From: Bacteroidales bacterium
GTDB taxonomy: Bacteria > Bacteroidota > Bacteroidia > Bacteroidales > 4484-276
Assembly: GCA_035647615.1 (NCBI GenBank)
Contig: DASRND010000013.1
Location: 1 to 64,000, forward strand
DNA length: 64,000 nt
Reading direction: 5' to 3'
Both the position numbers and the translations under genes were made by a program. The notes below the pieces were generated by a model, which saw only the letters and a list, made by a program, of their open reading frames with translations, was not told where the DNA came from and did not search any database. Positions 24,801-35,620 of the stretch are shown here, piece by piece. Numbering within the stretch: position 1 is the first letter of the stretch; every line of letters starts with the position of its first letter.

Positions 24801-27284
24801 ATGACGGATCACCAAAACATAGTACCTCCGTCTTCCCGGCGGTCTGCACTACGCACAGCAGTATATTTTTTTATTTTCGGATTTCTCTGGGTAACGCTTT
24901 CCGATACGCTGGTAAATCGTTTCGCGCCAGGTTTCGACCAGATGCGCCATCTACAGGCCATCAAGGGTTGGTTTTTTATCGTAGCAACCGCCGTGTTGAT
25001 TTATCTGCTGGTGAAGCAACAGATGGACAAAATAAAGGAACTGGCCAAAAAGTACGAGCAATCGCGACTACAGTACAAACAAATCTTGGATGTAAGCCAC
25101 GATTTGATATGGGCTACCGACATAGACGGCAAAATCATTTACATCAACAATGCCAGCACAGAAGTTTATGGCTACAAGCCGCACGAAATGACCGGCAAGA
25201 ATTTTAATGAATTTGTTGACAAAGAACAGTTTGATAAAAATCAAAAGATATTTTTCGAAGCAATAGAACAAGGTAGGAAAACTGTGGATTTCGACACCGA
25301 AATTTCCGACCGCAATGGCCTGCGCAAAATGTTGCGCGACCGGGTCACCTTATCCTACGACAACGACGGCAAACCAAACATGCTCGTGGGTGCTTCGATG
25401 GACATTACCGGCTACAAAATTTTTGAAAAAAAACTACTCAACAACAACGAGCGCCTGGAATTGGCGATGCATGGCGGAGGCATAGGGTTGTGGGATTACT
25501 GGTATCAATCACAGAAACTCATCGTCAACGAACACTTTAAAAAGATCAGCGGAACGGACGTGCAGGGCGACGTAATCAGCATCAAAAAATTAACTCCTGT
25601 CATCCATCCCGACGATCGCGCTGCATTTATTCAGTCCTTCACTCCACAGAATGTATCCGAAGAATTTATGGATGCTGAGTTCAGAATCAAAAACCCTGAA
25701 GGAAAATATCGTTGGGTGAGCAGCCGCGGCAAAATTACCGAGCGCGACAGCAATGGCTTGCCAACGCGCATGATAGGCGCCGTTACCGACGTTACACAAA
25801 CCAAAGAACTGGAGTTACAGCTAAAAGATCTTGTAGAAATTTACAGCAGCTTTATCAGCTATTCGAGCGAAGGCATCTATTTGTATGAAATGACCCAGCC
25901 CATGTCTGTCGACCTTCCGGTAGATGAGCAAATCCAACTGATGTATCATTCCGGCTACCTGCGCACCTGCAACGATGCCTATGCCCAAATGTACGGGCAT
26001 AAAAGTGCCTCCGCCATGGAAGGCCTCGACCTGGCCTCCATTCACGGCAGCGACGACAACCCCGACAACATCGCCTTTTTACGGGACTTTATCACGAGCG
26101 GCTATCGCATTTTGAACATGGTTACCAAAGAAATCGACAAAAACGGAAACGCCCTCTACATCAGCAACAATGTGGTGGGCATTACCGAAAACGGAAAACT
26201 GTTGCGCAGCTGGGGAAGTCAAAGCAACATCACCCGCCAGGTGCTTGTGCAGGAGCGTATCGAAGAATCAGAAAAGAGATATCGAATGATTTTTAAAACC
26301 AACCCGGTGCCTTTGCTCATTTTCAAAATCGACGATCTCACAATCCTTGATATTAATCAGGCTGCCTGCAAGCTGTTTGGCTACACGCAACAAGAACTCA
26401 CAAGTTTAAATGTTGGCAGCTTACGCGATAGCAACACTACCACCACCGACCATGAACGCATTGTTATGCTGATGGAAGAGCCGACGCATACCATGGAAAT
26501 GATGCTGAAAGCGAAATCGGGCGCACTTATTCCCGCTGATGTAAAAATCGACAAAATTGAATATCGCGACACACCGGCATTCCTGGTGGCTATCACCGAT
26601 CTGACTGCCGTGAAAAATGCCGAAAAAATGGTGATCCAGTCGCTGATAGAAGGCGGCGACACAGAACGCATTCGCGTAGCAAAAGAAATTCACGACAGCC
26701 TGGGGCAAAACCTAACGGCTGTGAGCCTCAACCTTAACTCCATAGAAAATCCACCGCAGGTAATGGGCGAGAAAAATGCTGAAAGATTTGCCCGCGGACT
26801 CCGGTTTCTGAAAGTTGCCATCGAAGAAAGCCGTAACATAGCACACAACCTCATGCCTAAAGCCATCGAGGATTTTGGCCTGGTGCTTTCGCTCCACTCC
26901 TTATTTAATCAAATAGAAAAAACCTCTGGCCTGAAAATCGATTTTTACCAAAATATGGACAACGAGACAAGGCTGGATAAACAAATTGAGCTCAACCTTT
27001 ACCGAATTACTCAGGAAGCCCTCAACAACGTATTGAAACATGCCGATGCCACCGAAGTTTTTGTTCAACTGATCCTGCATTCCGCCGAGATCATATTTAC
27101 CTTTGAAGACAATGGAAAAGGTTTTGATTCAAAAGATACCAACACCGGCAGAAAGGGCATCGGACTCAAAAGCATCGCCAACAGAGCCATCGCTATGTCA
27201 GGATATGCCGACATCGATAGCAACCCGGGGCACGGCACCATCATCACCATCGTAATACCCAAAACAGCCGGCAGTCCTCAGTAG
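24801..27284 (+). CDS. Multi-PAS membrane histidine kinase (HisKA_3 type)
   Basis: An 827-residue sensor kinase. Two membrane helices (about 20-38 and 55-71) are followed by four PAS-like domains, at about 85-205, 215-335, 345-480 and 490-605. The third is the least canonical. The dimerisation domain has the phosphoacceptor H631 in AKEIHDSLGQNLTA, typical of kinases that pair with NarL-type regulators. The ATPase domain shows ITQEALNNVLKHA (N box), DNGKGFD and GIGLKSIANRA. A NarL-type regulator starts 99 bp downstream and is the obvious partner. The periplasmic loop between the helices is short, so sensing is probably by the cytosolic PAS domains; the ligand is unknown. Confidence 0.9.
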   Translation: MTDHQNIVPPSSRRSALRTAVYFFIFGFLWVTLSDTLVNRFAPGFDQMRHLQAIKGWFFIVATAVLIYLLVKQQMDKIKELAKKYEQSRLQYKQILDVSHDLIWATDIDGKIIYINNASTEVYGYKPHEMTGKNFNEFVDKEQFDKNQKIFFEAIEQGRKTVDFDTEISDRNGLRKMLRDRVTLSYDNDGKPNMLVGASMDITGYKIFEKKLLNNNERLELAMHGGGIGLWDYWYQSQKLIVNEHFKKISGTDVQGDVISIKKLTPVIHPDDRAAFIQSFTPQNVSEEFMDAEFRIKNPEGKYRWVSSRGKITERDSNGLPTRMIGAVTDVTQTKELELQLKDLVEIYSSFISYSSEGIYLYEMTQPMSVDLPVDEQIQLMYHSGYLRTCNDAYAQMYGHKSASAMEGLDLASIHGSDDNPDNIAFLRDFITSGYRILNMVTKEIDKNGNALYISNNVVGITENGKLLRSWGSQSNITRQVLVQERIEESEKRYRMIFKTNPVPLLIFKIDDLTILDINQAACKLFGYTQQELTSLNVGSLRDSNTTTTDHERIVMLMEEPTHTMEMMLKAKSGALIPADVKIDKIEYRDTPAFLVAITDLTAVKNAEKMVIQSLIEGGDTERIRVAKEIHDSLGQNLTAVSLNLNSIENPPQVMGEKNAERFARGLRFLKVAIEESRNIAHNLMPKAIEDFGLVLSLHSLFNQIEKTSGLKIDFYQNMDNETRLDKQIELNLYRITQEALNNVLKHADATEVFVQLILHSAEIIFTFEDNGKGFDSKDTNTGRKGIGLKSIANRAIAMSGYADIDSNPGHGTIITIVIPKTAGSPQ

Positions 27285-27383: not shown

Positions 27384-28049
27384 ATGAATACCCAGGGAAA
27401 AAAAATTAGGCTGCTCATCGCCGACGATCATCAGATTGTGCGCGATGGTATTGTGGCGCTGCTGCAAAGCGACCAACACTTTGTAATAGCAGGCAAAGCC
27501 TGCAACGGGAAAATGGCGCTGGAGCTTGCCGGAGAACTACACCCCGATTTGGTAATTATGGATGTGAGCATGCCGGTGATGGACGGCATCACCAGTACCC
27601 GGCTGATCCGCGAAAAATATCCTGAAATTAAAGTGCTGGCCCTTACCATGACCAACGAGCTGGAACATATCAAAAACATGGTAGATGCCGGCGCCGGTGG
27701 ATATCTGTTGAAAAATTCAGGCAAGGAAGAGCTTATCACCGCCATAAACGAAGTCCTGGCCGGACACGAATATTTTAGCGGAGAGGTAAAAGATGCAATC
27801 GTGCGCGAGATGATGAAGAAAAAGACAACCAACGACCGGCTGGCCGGAGAACCCATTCCACTCACACGACGCGAAAAGGACGTGCTCTTGTTAATTGTTC
27901 AGGAATTTACCAATTCCGAAATAGCCGAAAAGCTATTTATCAGCGTGCGCACGGTCGACGCTCATCGCCGCAACCTGCTCGAAAAAACAGGCGCCCGCAA
28001 CACCGCCGGCCTTGTAAAATATGCCATCGACAATCAGCTCGATGAATAG
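27384..28049 (+). CDS. NarL/FixJ-type response regulator
   Basis: A 221-residue transcription regulator. The receiver domain has the acidic pair D14-D15 (LLIADDHQIVRDG), phosphoacceptor D60 (LVIMDVSMPVMDG), a Thr near residue 88 and K110 (GGYLLKNSG), so all switch residues are present. The C-terminus is a LuxR-type helix-turn-helix: LTRREKDVLLLI, then TNSEIAEKLFISVRTVDAHR. It follows a HisKA_3 kinase and has its own -7 box. Likely targets are the two downstream promoters sharing ATAGG-N8-CCTAT, since a palindrome of that size suits a LuxR-type dimer; this link is inferred. Confidence 0.92.
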   Translation: MNTQGKKIRLLIADDHQIVRDGIVALLQSDQHFVIAGKACNGKMALELAGELHPDLVIMDVSMPVMDGITSTRLIREKYPEIKVLALTMTNELEHIKNMVDAGAGGYLLKNSGKEELITAINEVLAGHEYFSGEVKDAIVREMMKKKTTNDRLAGEPIPLTRREKDVLLLIVQEFTNSEIAEKLFISVRTVDAHRRNLLEKTGARNTAGLVKYAIDNQLDE

Positions 28050-28112: not shown

Positions 28113-28145
28113 ATAGGCGTTTCTACCTATTAAAATTAGGCCTTT
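28113..28145. promoter_or_regulatory. Candidate operator ATAGG-N8-CCTAT, copy 1
   Basis: ATAGG (28113-28117) and CCTAT (28126-28130) form an inverted repeat with an 8-nt spacer, followed by ATTAAAATTAGGCCTTT. The same arrangement recurs at 28620-28656. The palindrome is centred about 53 bp upstream of the -7 box, a position typical for an activator. Confidence 0.6.
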
Positions 28146-28174
28146 CCCCCATAGGCATCGCCACTTGTTGCAGC

Positions 28175-28182
28175 TACTTTTG
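28175..28182 (+). promoter_or_regulatory. TACTTTTG -7 box of the receiver-only gene
   Basis: A TAnnTTTG match 19 nt before the ATG at 28202. There is no recognisable -33 element, which fits an activator-dependent promoter. Confidence 0.6.
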
Positions 28183-28201
28183 TACTCTATATTACGGAAC
28201 A

Positions 28202-28594
28202 ATGAATGCCCTGATAATTGGTAAGAATGAGATAGTAAAACAAGCCATTGGCGGCTTACTCGAGAATGAGTTCGATTTTAATATCGACTACATCGATGTT
28301 ACCAATCCACAGCTTACCTATTATGAATACCAGTTGCAAAATGTCAACTTTATCATACTCGATCTCACCACATTAGACGATCAGGGGCGAAATATCATCA
28401 AAGAAATTAAGCTCCTGGCTCCCGATGCGCGCATCATTGCCATGCATTACTACACGCAGAAAAATCTGGTGGATGCTTATATCGAAGCGGGTGCCAAAGG
28501 GTATCTGCTGATCGACACCAACCGCGCCGAACTTATCAAAGCCATGCAGTATTTACTGGACGGAGAGGTGTACATCAGCCCGGGCATTAACTGA
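28202..28594 (+). CDS. Receiver-domain-only protein with degenerate switch residues
   Basis: A 130-residue protein with the response-regulator receiver layout. It resembles the N-terminal half of a NarL-type regulator and stops where the linker to a helix-turn-helix would begin (GEVYISPG). A candidate phosphoacceptor D54 is present in IILDLTTLD. The usual acidic pair is replaced by GKNE (7-10), and the conserved lysine of the YLLK motif is replaced by isoleucine in GYLLIDTN. It is therefore probably a pseudo-receiver that acts by protein contact, though weak phosphorylation cannot be excluded. Its promoter carries the ATAGG-N8-CCTAT element, suggesting control by the adjacent regulator. Confidence 0.75.
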   Translation: MNALIIGKNEIVKQAIGGLLENEFDFNIDYIDVTNPQLTYYEYQLQNVNFIILDLTTLDDQGRNIIKEIKLLAPDARIIAMHYYTQKNLVDAYIEAGAKGYLLIDTNRAELIKAMQYLLDGEVYISPGIN

Positions 28595-28619
28595 TGCCTA
28601 ATAAGTAATTTTAGCGCGG

Positions 28620-28656
28620 ATAGGCATAAACACCTATTTATTAAAATAAGCCTTTT
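28620..28656. promoter_or_regulatory. Candidate operator ATAGG-N8-CCTAT, copy 2
   Basis: ATAGG (28620-28624) and CCTAT (28633-28637), again with an 8-nt spacer, followed by ATTAAAATAAGCCTTTT. Spacing to the following -7 box is 47 nt, against 44 nt for copy 1. Confidence 0.6.
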
Positions 28657-28684
28657 ATGGGAGTATCAGAATGCTGGGCGCTCT

Positions 28685-28692
28685 TACTTTTG
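28685..28692 (+). promoter_or_regulatory. TACTTTTG -7 box with no annotated gene behind it
   Basis: An octamer identical to that of the receiver gene promoter, at nearly the same distance from the palindrome. Transcription from here would run through 28700-29225 to the terminator at 29226-29258. Confidence 0.55.
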
Positions 28693-28729
28693 TAATTGTT
28701 TTAGAAAGTGATCGGAATGGTTGAGATAA

Positions 28730-28942
28730 CATTTTAGAATCCGATACTTAAAAAACAATAGTTCTTTACCGAGGAAAATATCTAAAATAAACACTGATAA
28801 ATCACTCGAATTTCTTGACAATCAAATCTTAAAAGATCCTGCGATGGTTCCCAACCTGATTCTGCTTAAGGGGAAAATTGAACAATTTAACAGCTGGGAT
28901 TTTATTGCACATCTCGATAAGACGACTGACCAAAACTGCTAA
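28730..28942 (+). other. Possible short coding remnant or small protein
   Basis: This frame is open from 28730 to a TAA at 28940. It reads like real protein over its last 50 codons (for example KSLEFLDNQILKDPAMVPN), with charged and hydrophobic residues alternating. The only ATG is at 28844, which would give a 32-residue peptide; a longer product would need a non-ATG start. It lies between a promoter and a terminator. It may be a small protein or the leftover of a larger gene; an RNA product is equally possible. Beyond 28942 to 29225 I see nothing coding. Confidence 0.3.
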
Positions 28943-29225
28943 CATTACTACACGATAACTACTCGTAACATCATCGCAGTTCTTTTAAGATTTACTATTT
29001 AGTTCTTTGAATTTTGATTTTGAATTTTTTTCATGAGGTTTTCATAATGACTGGGTTTTTAGGTTAATAGATGCCGGAGTGAGTCTGTTTTTGAAGAAAG
29101 GTGATTTTTTTAACTGACTTGTAATTTTTTAATTGACTTGTAATTCTCCATACAGACACACGCGAAAGCAATTCCTAAACGAAATCTTTTTATCAAAAAG
29201 GGCGAAAAGGATTTTCGGTATTTAT

Positions 29226-29258
29226 AAAGGCTGTCAATTAGTTTTGGCAGCCTTTTTT
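29226..29258 (+). terminator. Rho-independent terminator before the C1 peptidase gene
   Basis: An 8-bp stem AAAGGCTG/CAGCCTTT with a short loop, followed by T7. It would end the transcript starting near 28699. Confidence 0.75.
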
Positions 29259-29310
29259 TATTGACATTTGCACCGTGATACTTATTCATCAAAACAAAAA
29301 TTTATAAAAC

Positions 29311-30686: not shown

Positions 30687-31349
30687 ATGAAAAGGATTAT
30701 CGGAACAACTATTACCTCCCGGCTGCTAATGCTGCTGCTGGTAGTTGCCGTTGTCGGCGGTTTTTCGAGTTGTAAAAGCTCGAAGAAACTTGCCGCACAG
30801 AAAGCTGCCGCCGAGCGTGCCGCCCTAATTGAACAAGCCAAGCAAGACCTGCTGTTGATTATCAACGACCAGGGAAATATGACCGTTGGCCAAAAAGAAG
30901 ATAAAGTAGCCACCATCGTGGCTATGGATCTGCACGACAGCGAGGTGGATGCTTTGATAGAGCGTGCACAGCAAGCCATCGAGCAGCAAAAAGCCGAACT
31001 GAAAAGGCAGGAAGAAGAGCGCTTAAGAAAAGAACGCGAGGCGCTGCAACAACAGGAAGAGCAAAAATTTGACAAACTCGAAGACATCTTCGACCGCGTG
31101 GCCGCCTCCAAATCAGTAGAGATGAGCAACCGCAGCATCGAAGAAGCGCTTCGTTTCTTCTCATCGCCCGACGTGCCCGTGCTGATCATCGTATACATCG
31201 ACAGTGAGATCACCGACTACGACAAGCCTACCACCATCCGCAAATACCTCGAGTATCTAAAGGATCAGGGCAAAAATCCCAACGACATCCACAATGTGAA
31301 GTTTGATGCTAATGGTAAAATAAATGAGTTGGAACTTATCAAAAAGTAA
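30687..31349 (+). CDS. Coiled-coil lipoprotein, unknown function
   Basis: A 220-residue predicted lipoprotein: a basic N-terminus, a hydrophobic stretch and a lipobox GGFSSC with C29. A helical region follows, with a strong glutamate/glutamine/lysine-rich coiled coil at about 95-135 (QKAELKRQEEERLRKER). The last 70 residues form a separate domain with LIIVYIDSEITDYDKPTTI. The family is not recognised. The next gene begins 6 bp downstream, so the two are an operon, and its exported product may be a partner. Confidence 0.7.
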   Translation: MKRIIGTTITSRLLMLLLVVAVVGGFSSCKSSKKLAAQKAAAERAALIEQAKQDLLLIINDQGNMTVGQKEDKVATIVAMDLHDSEVDALIERAQQAIEQQKAELKRQEEERLRKEREALQQQEEQKFDKLEDIFDRVAASKSVEMSNRSIEEALRFFSSPDVPVLIIVYIDSEITDYDKPTTIRKYLEYLKDQGKNPNDIHNVKFDANGKINELELIKK

Positions 31350-31355
31350 TAGATC

Positions 31356-31931
31356 ATGAAAACATTCAAAAATATTATTCTCGTAGCGATGATGCTTGCC
31401 ATGAGCATCAACACCTTTGCGCAGGACAATGTAAGCCCCGAACGCAAACATGCCATCGACAGCCTGGCACTCGAAAAAGTGCGCGACCTGAGCAAATACA
31501 TAAGCATCATTGGCGACAAGCAAACACCGTGGTCGGAAGCTAATCGTGTGATCGAACGCACCCTGGAGCTCTTTATAGAAGGAGCACAAATGGGTGTATC
31601 CTCGCTGGCCACTCAGGAAGTGGAATATTACGGCATACGCACGTATCTGGAGCGACTGATGGCTTTGAATTATGACAAAGTAAAAATCGAGTGGTTCAAC
31701 ATCGAATACATCAGCGACCTTGAACGCCAGCCTGACGGACGCTACGTGGGCGTCATCACCATCTATCAGCGCTTCGAGGGCAGCTCCGGCGACAATATGA
31801 AATATGTTGACACAACCAAAAAAGACATTACGGTTTACGTAGAACGCAAGCAGACCCAAATCGGTGGCCGTCTCATCGGCTTCTGGGACGTGTTGCTCGG
31901 TGATGTGCGCGTAGCTGAAACAATGCCTTAA
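31356..31931 (+). CDS. Exported protein of unknown function
   Basis: A 191-residue protein with a signal peptide cleaved near residue 22 (NTFAQ). The remainder is a single domain: a helix with YGIRTYLERL near residue 90, then alternating strands KVKIEWFNIEYI, YVGVITIYQRFEG and DITVYVERK, ending FWDVLLGDVRVAETMP. The order resembles the N-terminal domain of the leucine-rich-repeat protein encoded at 33002-35620. No named family is recognised. It follows the coiled-coil lipoprotein by 6 bp and is closed by a strong terminator. Confidence 0.7.
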   Translation: MKTFKNIILVAMMLAMSINTFAQDNVSPERKHAIDSLALEKVRDLSKYISIIGDKQTPWSEANRVIERTLELFIEGAQMGVSSLATQEVEYYGIRTYLERLMALNYDKVKIEWFNIEYISDLERQPDGRYVGVITIYQRFEGSSGDNMKYVDTTKKDITVYVERKQTQIGGRLIGFWDVLLGDVRVAETMP

Positions 31932-31947
31932 TTTTTATTATGCTAAA

Positions 31948-31994
31948 AAAAAATCCGCCGCCGGTAGAAAGCCTTCTTTTGCGGCGGATTTTTT
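31948..31994 (+). terminator. Rho-independent terminator
   Basis: An 11-bp stem AAATCCGCCGC/GCGGCGGATTT followed by T6. It ends the lipoprotein operon. Confidence 0.9.
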
Positions 31995-32102
31995 AAAATT
32001 TCCTTCCTGCATCAATTAATTTTTAATGATTTAGTAATTATTGACCCTGTCAAAAATAAATTCACCTCCCAAAATTTTCCATCCGCCGCGACAATCTCTA
32101 CT

Positions 32103-32110
32103 TAGTTTTG
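32103..32110 (+). promoter_or_regulatory. TAGTTTTG -7 box of the leucine-rich-repeat operon
   Basis: A TAnnTTTG match 25 nt before the ATG at 32136, just after the terminator of the preceding operon. Confidence 0.6.
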
Positions 32111-32135
32111 TTTTAAATCTGAATATTAAAATCTG

Positions 32136-32987
32136 ATGATGCAACAAAAGATTATTGTTTTTGTGTGGCTGATGATGGCGGCAACAGAAATATTTGCCCA
32201 AAGCAGTGAATTAACCCCAAACAATCGCGGACGCTATCAATACGAAGAGGCATCGTTTTTTGCCGAAACCAAGCAAGTAAATCAATTTTTCAGGCGCTTC
32301 AATGGCGATGAAGATATGCGTGGTGCCCGAATGGCCGCCGACGACCCGCAATATCGCGATACCGATCTGCGCCGTCGGTATATCAATGGATTGTTTGACG
32401 AACAAAGCGACAACATACCATCGATGCTCAAGCGCGCTTTTGTGGCGGATGTTACGGGCGATGAAGCCAAATATCTCGACTTTCATGGCGGTGAATGGTT
32501 TGGCGAAACAACGGTGCGCTTTACGCGCAATGGCAAAGAGGTGTTTCTCACTTTGTTTATGCAGCTTGTTCCCGACAACCTCGGCTCTAAATGGGTAATC
32601 GACGAGGTGAAACATTATCCCTACGATAACCTTTATCACCGCGACGATCAGTCGTCCTCCCGTTTTTTGCACCCGCTGAGCCACGAGCTCGACTTCATGA
32701 ACCTCGACCGGGTGTTTGCCTCCGACGAACACATAGGCGATTATTTCAAAAAAGGGTTTGCGCCCGACAAACTCTCCATTTTTCTTTACGAACTTCGCAA
32801 CGGCACCCTGAAGTTCAATTACGTTTCCGGAGTCAAGTTTCACTTCTTCCAGGTAGACGGATGGTATTTTGAGATCAGCGAATTCAACCGCCCGGGCAAC
32901 AACCGTGGCTGGCTCATTTCCAACCTTATCAGGCTGGAAAAAGGACAGGAGAATAGTCTTAAAAATTTTATTTATAATCTCGATTAG
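32136..32987 (+). CDS. Exported protein of unknown function
   Basis: A 283-residue protein with a signal peptide (cleavage after IFAQ, about residue 22). The mature part is hydrophilic, with a segment FNGDEDMRGARMAADDPQYR near 55 and two clusters rich in aromatic residues toward the end (LKFNYVSGVKFHFFQVDGWYF). It lacks cysteines and lipobox. I recognise no family. It is the first gene of an operon with the leucine-rich-repeat protein, which begins 14 bp after its stop, and the two products probably work at the same site. Confidence 0.65.
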   Translation: MMQQKIIVFVWLMMAATEIFAQSSELTPNNRGRYQYEEASFFAETKQVNQFFRRFNGDEDMRGARMAADDPQYRDTDLRRRYINGLFDEQSDNIPSMLKRAFVADVTGDEAKYLDFHGGEWFGETTVRFTRNGKEVFLTLFMQLVPDNLGSKWVIDEVKHYPYDNLYHRDDQSSSRFLHPLSHELDFMNLDRVFASDEHIGDYFKKGFAPDKLSIFLYELRNGTLKFNYVSGVKFHFFQVDGWYFEISEFNRPGNNRGWLISNLIRLEKGQENSLKNFIYNLD

Positions 32988-33001: not shown

Positions 33002-35620
33002 ATGAAAACCCTATCGATAAAGTTGGCGGTTCTTTTTACTGCACTTATCATTTACACAGTTCCGGCAACAGCTCAAACGAAGCTCACTCCAGAGGAAGTT
33101 GAGCGCTACAGCGAGGATGCCCGCAAAATGGTTTCCTATCTCGAAACAACTTTTAATACACTCGGCAATCCCAAGGTGTCGGTGAAGGAAAAAGATATCA
33201 TCATCAACCAAAGTTGGGCAAAGATTTTTGTAAATAGCAAAGTGCAAATAGAAGACGACCTGGACGAAAACCGTGAGATACCCATCCATAAAGACGTTCA
33301 GGCTTATCTCAAAGACATCGATTTCTTTTTTAAAAAAGTAGCCTTTAAGTTTGATGTCGAAAAAATAGAGCATCAGATCAACGAGAAAAACGAACTCTTT
33401 TTCAAAATTACGCTCAACCGAAACCTGAGCGGCACCACCATCGAAGGCGACAGCGTGAGCAGCAACCAGCTGCGCTTTATCGAGATAAATCTTACCGACA
33501 CAGATAAAGACCTGAAGGTAGCAAGCATTTACACCACCCTTCTCAACGAAAAAGAAGAGCTGCGCAACTGGTGGAATGAGCTGCCCCTGGCCTGGAAAGA
33601 TTTTTTCGGCTGCCACATCACCCTGGCCGAAAATCTGCTTCTGAAAGAAATCTTTTACTACGACGATAGCCTGGCGCAGCTCCGAACGAAAGTAGAACGC
33701 CGCATGAGCCGCGACACACTGAGCCTCGCTGTGAACGACGATACTCTTACCATGCCGCTCAGCAACGGCGCCCCTGTTACTGCGGCTTTTATCGACCGGC
33801 AGATCAAGAAAATTTTAAATCTCGACACCATTAACATTTCGGGCAATACGCACATCCTTTCGCTGGAGCCACTCTCCAAGCTCACTTCGCTGCGGCGCAT
33901 CGACTGCAGCCGCACCTTTGTAGAAGACCTGATGCCGTTGCGCAATAATATTCAACTCGAATATCTCAACTGTGGCAGCACTTCGGTGAATAGCCTGGAC
34001 CCATTAAAATATACAACCCGCCTCGAAATACTTCTGCTCAACAATACCCTTGTAGATAACCTGGAGGCGGTAAAGAATTTTAAACAACTGCGTCAGCTCA
34101 ATTTCAGCAACACGCCGGTAGCCGACATGTCGGTTATTTCCGGGTTGCCAAAACTTAATGAGCTGGAGCTGATAGCCACCCAGGTAAATACGCTCGCACC
34201 GCTTCAGACTGTTACTTCGCTTGAACGCCTCGATTTCTCTGAGACCTCCATCACCGATCTTTCTCCCCTAAAAGGTTTGAATAATCTTCGTTTCCTAAAG
34301 TTCGACCGCACACAGGTGAGGGATTTGTCGCCATTGAAAACAACGGAAAGCTTGCAAATTCTTTTTGCCGACCAGACTGCTGTTAGCGAGCTTGAGTCAC
34401 TTGCAGATCTACCACGTCTCAGCCGCATTTATTGCGACCAATCAGGCGTGACGCGCGCTGATGCAATAGCATTTATGAAAAATAAACCGGAAGTGCTGGT
34501 GATATATGAGTCGGCAAATCTTGAAAACTGGTGGAAAACGATGGCCCCTGCCTGGAAGCGCATTTTTAAAGATGCTATCGGACTGCAACAGGAACCTGCC
34601 AAAGAAGAGCTGCATCAAATGTCGCGCATAAAAAAACTTTCTATTGCCAACAATGCATCGATCCATTCGCTGGAACCACTCTCTGCCCTGCCAATGCTTT
34701 ACTGCCTCAATGCTCAGGGAACCGGCATCTCTTCGCTGGAACCGCTAGCCAACCTCGGAGATTTACATGAACTAAACTTTTCGGATACACCTGTAGAGGA
34801 TATACTGCCGCTCCAAAATCTGACAAAACTTGAGAAGCTCTCGTTCGACCGCACCCCGGTGAAAAGCATCGTTCCGCTGATGCCGCTTGAGCTACTCACC
34901 TTGGTATATGCCGACAACACGAGCGTACTCGACGAAGAAATGGTCGAATTCACTTACCGGCATCCCAAAGCGCTGGTGGTGTACCAAACATCTGAGCTGA
35001 TGCTGTGGTGGGAAAAGCTTCCTGACGTTTGGAAACTGCTGGCCGAGAAGTTTATCCATAGCGACGAAACTCTCACGCGTGAACAGTTGCAAACGCTGGT
35101 CAACCTGCGTCGCATCCGCCTGAGCGACGTACCCGCACTCGAAAGTAAAAGCATCGAAATCCGTAGTCTCGAGTTTATTGATAAGCTATTGTTTTTGGAA
35201 GAGCTAAGTTTCAGCAACACCAGCATCACCAGCCTGGAACCGTTGCGTGGCATGGTATCGCTGCGAATCCTGATATGTCCCAACAACCCCATCGGTAGCC
35301 TGGAACCACTCTCGGAAGTTCCTAATCTGGAAGTGCTGGACGTGCAAAATACGCCTGTCGAAAGCCTCGAATATCTTGCACCGCTTGCGCAAATGAAAAA
35401 AATCAACTGTTCGGGAACCATGATTAAAAAACTAAAAGGTTTACAGAATTTACAAAACCTTGAGCAGCTCGACTGCTTTAATACAAGCATTCGTAAATTA
35501 AACGAGGTAGAAGGTTTGCCGGAGTTGAAGTTGGTGCGTTGCTACAACACGCGCATCAACCAGCGTAGTATCGATAAATTCAAAGATAAAAACCCGCAGG
35601 TGGAAGTGGTTTATTATTAA
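33002..35620 (+). CDS. Exported modular leucine-rich-repeat protein
   Basis: An 872-residue exported protein (signal peptide to about residue 24). An N-terminal domain (about 28-185) precedes three modules. Each module opens with a WW...WK block (W190-W191, W510-W511, W669-W670; for example NWWNELPLAWKDFF), continues with leucine-rich repeats of about 22-23 residues (pattern L..L..L..NTPV..L.PL), and closes with a cap ending VxVxY (to 502, 661 and 872). Leucine-rich repeats usually bind proteins; the ligand is unknown. The modular repetition suggests internal duplication. It is co-transcribed with the gene at 32136. Confidence 0.85.
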   Translation: MKTLSIKLAVLFTALIIYTVPATAQTKLTPEEVERYSEDARKMVSYLETTFNTLGNPKVSVKEKDIIINQSWAKIFVNSKVQIEDDLDENREIPIHKDVQAYLKDIDFFFKKVAFKFDVEKIEHQINEKNELFFKITLNRNLSGTTIEGDSVSSNQLRFIEINLTDTDKDLKVASIYTTLLNEKEELRNWWNELPLAWKDFFGCHITLAENLLLKEIFYYDDSLAQLRTKVERRMSRDTLSLAVNDDTLTMPLSNGAPVTAAFIDRQIKKILNLDTINISGNTHILSLEPLSKLTSLRRIDCSRTFVEDLMPLRNNIQLEYLNCGSTSVNSLDPLKYTTRLEILLLNNTLVDNLEAVKNFKQLRQLNFSNTPVADMSVISGLPKLNELELIATQVNTLAPLQTVTSLERLDFSETSITDLSPLKGLNNLRFLKFDRTQVRDLSPLKTTESLQILFADQTAVSELESLADLPRLSRIYCDQSGVTRADAIAFMKNKPEVLVIYESANLENWWKTMAPAWKRIFKDAIGLQQEPAKEELHQMSRIKKLSIANNASIHSLEPLSALPMLYCLNAQGTGISSLEPLANLGDLHELNFSDTPVEDILPLQNLTKLEKLSFDRTPVKSIVPLMPLELLTLVYADNTSVLDEEMVEFTYRHPKALVVYQTSELMLWWEKLPDVWKLLAEKFIHSDETLTREQLQTLVNLRRIRLSDVPALESKSIEIRSLEFIDKLLFLEELSFSNTSITSLEPLRGMVSLRILICPNNPIGSLEPLSEVPNLEVLDVQNTPVESLEYLAPLAQMKKINCSGTMIKKLKGLQNLQNLEQLDCFNTSIRKLNEVEGLPELKLVRCYNTRINQRSIDKFKDKNPQVEVVYY

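Follow-up and report, generated by a model that had tools for sequence, protein, structure and literature searches.

A locus carried by a 64,000-nucleotide stretch of Bacteroidales DNA (contig DASRND010000013.1, positions 1 to 64,000; hereafter the window) is probably a self-contained regulatory module in which a histidine kinase controls a NarL-type regulator, and this regulator in turn controls two dyad promoters, whose products would be the lone receiver REC1 and a structured RNA acting in trans. In the mechanism that we propose, the PAS histidine kinase would phosphorylate the adjoining regulator, and the phosphorylated dimer would bind TAGGT-N6-ACCTA at about -68 together with a second block at about -43, the latter either directly or cooperatively. 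The bound regulator would then recruit RNA polymerase to two promoters which lack a -33 element and have only a -7 box, so that we infer activation rather than repression. Transcription from promoter 1 would give REC1, a pseudo-receiver which may tune the kinase or the regulator, and transcription from promoter 2 a structured RNA of ~190-230 nt with a 5' leader, in relatives often along with a second receiver. This RNA would display the repeated motif ACUUGUAAU in a large loop closed by a helix and would act in trans, most simply through an RNA-binding protein. All of the evidence comes from sequence comparison, and the comparative data set consists of fragmented, mostly uncultured genomes. 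What the sequences show directly is the promoter architecture, its restriction to this locus in 11 genomes, the terminator and the covariation of the RNA structure. The features of the locus are collected in Table 1.

Table 1. Features of the kinase-regulator-RNA locus, with positions in the window.
Feature	Position	Strand	Basis or remark
Histidine kinase: hydrophobic N-terminal segments (by eye), several PAS domains, HisKA_3 and HATPase_c	24801..27284	+	Pfam; synteny where contig reaches
NarL/FixJ-type response regulator, canonical receiver and GerE; proposed activator of both promoters	27384..28049	+	Pfam
Promoter 1 dyad ATAGG-N8-CCTAT, ATAGGCGTTTCTACCTAT	28113..28130	.	centre about -65
Promoter 1 second block TAGGCCTTT	28137..28145	+	fits family pattern
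Promoter 1 Bacteroidota -7 box TACTTTTG	28175..28182	+	
Lone receiver REC1, 130 aa	28202..28594	+	Pfam; alignment
Promoter 2 dyad ATAGG-N8-CCTAT, ATAGGCATAAACACCTAT	28620..28637	.	centre about -68
Promoter 2 A+T-rich linker TTTATTAAAA, consensus TTTTGAAAAA	28637..28646	+	1.46 bits per column, 9 genomes
Promoter 2 second block TAAGCCTTTTATGGG, consensus TACGCTTTTTA	28647..28661	+	centre about -43; 1.45 bits per column
Promoter 2 -7 box TACTTTTG	28685..28692	+	64 nt from dyad start in 9/11 genomes
Predicted promoter 2 transcript, ~560 nt	28697..29262	+	start inferred from -7 box placement
REC2 remnant (second receiver gene)	28769..28915	+	tblastn 38% identity, E 4e-8
Structured RNA core, covariance model R1	29036..29226	+	186.5 bits; covariation
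First repeat ACTTGTAAT	29117..29125	+	predicted mostly unpaired
Second repeat ACTTGTAATTCT	29136..29147	+	sole occurrence in genome
Intrinsic terminator stem-loop, then T run	29226..29255	+	

Gene order, regulator and receivers

Wherever the contigs extend far enough, the order of the locus is mutS, kinase, regulator, receiver 1, an optional receiver 2 and RNA, and the locus is retained in eleven genomes of the same family. The regulator matches Response_reg (3.7e-28) and GerE (1.9e-16) in Pfam, and its HTH is near-invariant among nine genomes. In the family alignment the acidic pair of REC1 is replaced by GKN-like residues and Thr/Ser by His, and the active-site Lys is missing, which makes it a pseudo-receiver according to the definition given in PMC12632262. 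The second receiver gene, REC2, is intact in G001, G004, G007 and G008 and is reduced to a remnant in G000 and G002. Intact REC2 of the relatives has Glu at the position of the phospho-acceptor Asp, so REC2 is likewise a pseudo-receiver. Downstream of the locus secreted or lipoprotein-like genes follow one another, one of them encoding a large leucine-rich-repeat protein (33002-35620), and the three genes which precede it (30687-32987) have no Pfam match.

The two promoters

The first-pass annotation of the window described two ATAGG-N8-CCTAT dyads followed by identical octamers, and both are found exactly in the window sequence, with TACTTTTG beginning 44 and 47 nt past the dyad ends. The string ATTAAAATnAG.CCTTT, also described as shared, is indeed present in both promoters but does not stand at quite the same distance from the dyad in each, the difference being a few nt; what was overlooked is that 'ATTAAAAT..CCTTT' is a piece of the conserved linker and second block. 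The octamer agrees with the -7 box of Bacteroidota sigma-A promoters, the consensus of which is TAnnTTTG, placed at -12 to -5 (PMC9723704), and the positions of the dyad centres and second blocks were computed with the -7 box set there. The -33 element of such promoters is missing, as had already been noticed: TTG is absent from the expected distance in both promoters, and no such motif is present in the family alignment either. A scan for sigma-70 promoters gave matches at chance level only.

Pattern searches of the whole 3.75-Mb genome, a check which had been suggested along with the description of the dyads, found the exact dyad in three copies, the third within a vWA-domain-like coding gene, and the composite pattern solely at the kinase-NarL locus. 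The idea of a genome-wide regulon was dropped, there being just three exact dyads in this genome with one of these coding. In first-order Markov sequence the dyad turns up 0.35-0.7 times per Mb on each strand, and 20 Mb of such sequence, with the same dinucleotide make-up, contained no dyad with a -7 box at the right spacing, against two such pairs in 0.6 kb here. With two mismatches allowed, the window contained 13 dyads where 17 were expected, which is no enrichment, so the two exact copies stand outside any diffuse background. By far the stronger evidence, in comparison with these within-window statistics, is conservation in 11 related genomes.

These eleven genomes of the same family share a conserved block of ~41 bp, made up of the dyad TAGGT-N6-ACCTA, the linker TTTTGAAAAA and the second block TACGCTTTTTA. 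At promoter 2 nine genomes can be aligned gap-free over the whole region that begins with the dyad and ends with the -7 box, and mean information there is 1.57 bits per column for the dyad, 1.46 for the linker, 1.45 for the second block and 1.78 for the -7 box, while flanks and spacer have 0.42-0.63 bits per column. Nine of the eleven genomes have 64 nt between the starts of the dyad and of the -7 box at promoter 2, the other two 63 and 62 nt; at promoter 1 the interval is 61-63 nt in the genomes in which it was measured. The pattern of dyad and second block has matches in all but one of the 12 family genomes, either one or two per genome and all of them at the kinase-NarL locus, and the genome without a match is only 64% complete. 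A composite site with only one or two copies per genome, none of them away from this locus, makes a global regulator unlikely. It also lends comparative support, short of proof, to the earlier proposal that the adjoining kinase and NarL-type regulator act here. The second block possesses weak symmetry and a second dimer may bind there.

The first-pass annotation further supposed that a LuxR-type dimer acts as the activator, and this is in accordance with the 16-18-bp dyad, the -33-less promoters, the sites at ~-68 and ~-43 and the near-invariant spacing to the -7 box. It could also be that the dyads are bound by some other regulator, for example the NarL-type regulator at C32 or a factor which is not of the NarL type, or that the adjoining NarL regulator represses, and we regard this as unlikely. 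None of 26 close homologues of the regulator, taken from among the closest outside the family, has the dyad within ~1.5 kb, a result that would suit such a reading and which indicates that association with the dyad is not general for this type of regulator. However, only a single further full-length NarL-type regulator came to light in the genome, the one at C32; it is 43% identical, is paired with a kinase of its own and has no dyad near it, and each composite site in the family is situated at the kinase-regulator locus described here. As for repression, a pair of sites at about -68 and -43 in front of a promoter that lacks a -33 element is what activators typically have.

A predicted structured RNA downstream of promoter 2

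The first-pass annotation also overlooked what promoter 2 probably delivers, namely a predicted structured non-coding RNA. The predicted promoter 2 transcript of the window contains no intact gene and ends at an intrinsic terminator. The consensus fold has two helices, one outer and one inner, together with a small hairpin, and 14 of its 28 pairs have changes on both sides in alignment A4, which was fitted to the model, so that these pair counts tilt toward structure. The covariation score was reached by none of 500 shuffles and structures slid along the alignment scored far lower; RNAalifold on an independent MAFFT alignment (A1) agrees, with 15 of 38 pairs, the terminator included. The covariance model, built on six sequences from six genomes, retrieves two RNAs that had no part in training, those of G006 (E 3e-11) and G007 (8e-11); in G005 it picks up an incomplete copy at the end of a contig (E 3e-4). 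G004 and G008 have a diverged version of the RNA with the same ACTTGTAAT repeats, which the model misses. No convincing second copy was found with the model in any genome searched, and in 393 genomes of the order, with strict filters and E 0.01, only members of the family gave matches. Rfam returned no match above the gathering score (sub-threshold hits only, E 0.11-0.48), and we found no report of the dyad or of the RNA in the open-access literature. The RNA, as predicted from these alignments, is a covariation-supported family without an Rfam entry and previously undescribed.

In G003, G010 and G011 there is no coding gene between promoter 2 and the RNA, and the predicted transcript runs to roughly 340 nt; in G001 and G007 a receiver-2 gene, here intact, comes before the RNA. 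The latter arrangement, found with the diverged form in G004 and G008, could be attributed to a cis element. Such an element might stabilise the receiver-2 mRNA from its 3' UTR or, since a C1-peptidase gene follows the terminator of the RNA in most genomes, serve as a leader or attenuator of the downstream gene. We consider a cis function not very likely, because the RNA is conserved where no coding gene is present (G003, G010, G011) and where only a receiver-2 remnant is left (G000, G002). The downstream gene also varies, belonging to another protein family in G003 and being lipoprotein-like in G004 and G008, and in several genomes a -7-like box is situated between the terminator and the next gene. 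That the essential output of the locus is the RNA is, in our view, best suggested by G006, where receiver 1 is degraded and promoter 1 lost and where kinase, regulator, promoter 2 and RNA are all retained.

In several genomes the RNA core opens with ATG ACT GGG TTT TTA GGT TAA or close variants (29045-29065). The conserved ATG at the opening of the core (CATAATGA) would allow that a small peptide is made from the conserved ATGACTGGG... in place of a functional RNA, which seems to us very improbable: the reading frame has 6 codons in G000, G002, G005 and G007 and about 16-19 codons of other sequence elsewhere (T5 versus T6 runs). This means that the frame of the conserved ATG is not kept and coding is unlikely, and the base-pair covariation favours RNA.

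In the trans-acting RNA which we prefer, the two ACTTGTAAT repeats sit in the large loop and are predicted to be mostly more unpaired than average; in G006 they are degenerate. The repeated motif is ACUUGUAAU and not GGA, and no binding protein is known for it. A perfect complement of the 12-mer repeat is absent from G000, and in the other genomes there is hardly any besides the RNA itself; the RNA may pair with mRNAs via shorter seeds. It could also act by sequestering a protein, a possibility about which we are doubtful. CsrA was dropped as a candidate partner, its domain PF02599 being absent in 12 family genomes while control genomes were positive.

Known systems and occurrence beyond the family

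In classical promoters activated by NarL/FixJ-type regulators the sites lie at ~-68 and ~-43 and the promoter has no -35-type element. Site positions in the window are the same, and the differences concern the half-site sequence and the RNA output. The locus is also similar to GacS/GacA-RsmX/Y/Z and BarA/UvrY-CsrB/C in having a NarL/FixJ-type regulator, with a kinase that is cognate by adjacency only, and very few genomic targets. The GacA/UvrY box is an inverted repeat of 18 nt, TGTAAG-N6-CTTACA, and in csrB/C there is a second contact near -35 (PMC4682653); ATAGGT-N6-ACCTAT of the window has the same 6-6-6 geometry and is likewise accompanied by a second contact, here a predicted one at the second block. 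The output of Gac/Rsm is a non-coding RNA with a repeated unpaired motif (PMC2375449); the predicted window RNA has repeats of another motif, mostly unpaired in the prediction. Unlike in Gac/Rsm, the half-site here is ATAGGT and the TGTAAG-N6-CTTACA box is absent, a CsrA/RsmA gene is missing in the 12 family genomes, the repeat is ACUUGUAAU instead of GGA, the regulator and the RNA are genetically linked, and the locus also possesses a promoter for a pseudo-receiver and the Bacteroidota -7 box. The differing box, the absence of CsrA and the non-GGA repeat indicate that this circuit is not a member of Gac/Rsm. It is only tentatively that we suggest a Csr/Rsm-like circuit which evolved independently in Bacteroidales and in which a dedicated NarL regulator, an RNA sequestering a ACUUGUAAU-recognising protein and feedback by the pseudo-receivers would be combined.

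Small RNAs of the same phylum are Rfp18 of Flavobacterium and the RbpB-linked sRNAs of Bacteroides (PMC9723704, PMC11697453); the window RNA is set apart from these by their descriptions only, and the two papers describe neither this RNA nor a NarL-type activator with this dyad. Taken as a whole, the comparison suggests that these Bacteroidales may have evolved their own circuit in which a sensor turns on a regulatory RNA, as is the case in Pseudomonas and E. coli. To our knowledge, few transcription-factor sites have been established in Bacteroidota and links from a regulator to an RNA are even fewer. The locus offers a proposed operator which is defined precisely (TAGGT-N6-ACCTA with its second block, at 64 nt from the -7 box), together with a candidate regulator and an RNA family. 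If our reading is true, the design leading from a two-component system to a regulatory RNA came about in bacteria that lack CsrA, its usual protein partner, and the RNA might serve as bait for a protein partner of its own.

Genomes of the order and of the class were searched with the pattern TAGGT-N6-ACCTA, 43-50 nt, TAnnTTTG, the reversed pattern serving as control. The 393 genomes of the order gave 24 matches outside the family versus 10 control matches, and the 390 genomes of the class gave 5 versus 21, that is, no enrichment outside the order, for which reason the motif was dropped as a class-wide feature. Four of the order matches immediately precede a lone receiver gene, and in three of the four, in three genomes, a NarL-type regulator comes immediately before the dyad, an arrangement which favours control by the neighbouring regulator. 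The predicted promoter architecture is thus one that recurs in other Bacteroidales but is not general. Two order matches precede hydrogenase-subunit-like genes.

One genome outside the order (G639) contains, at ~1500 of L062 and L064, two near-copies of a TAGGTCTTCTTACCTA site and then TACGTATTTATACGTA-type repeats; the TACGTATTTATACGTA repeats look like an element of another regulator and were set aside. Two near-identical promoters, TAGGTTT..AAACCTACGGAAAAA, with a common stem TGCGTCTGAAAGACGC before TATCTTTG, were noticed in G322 (L094 and L116, 1501-1571) and have a different architecture. That related modules might sense hydrogen or redox is hinted at by L102 (1501-2531), L099 (1501-2574) and L103 (1391-1982) of other Bacteroidales families, where the same dyad promoter is followed by one or two lone receivers and then by NuoE/HydC-like or iron-sulfur protein genes.
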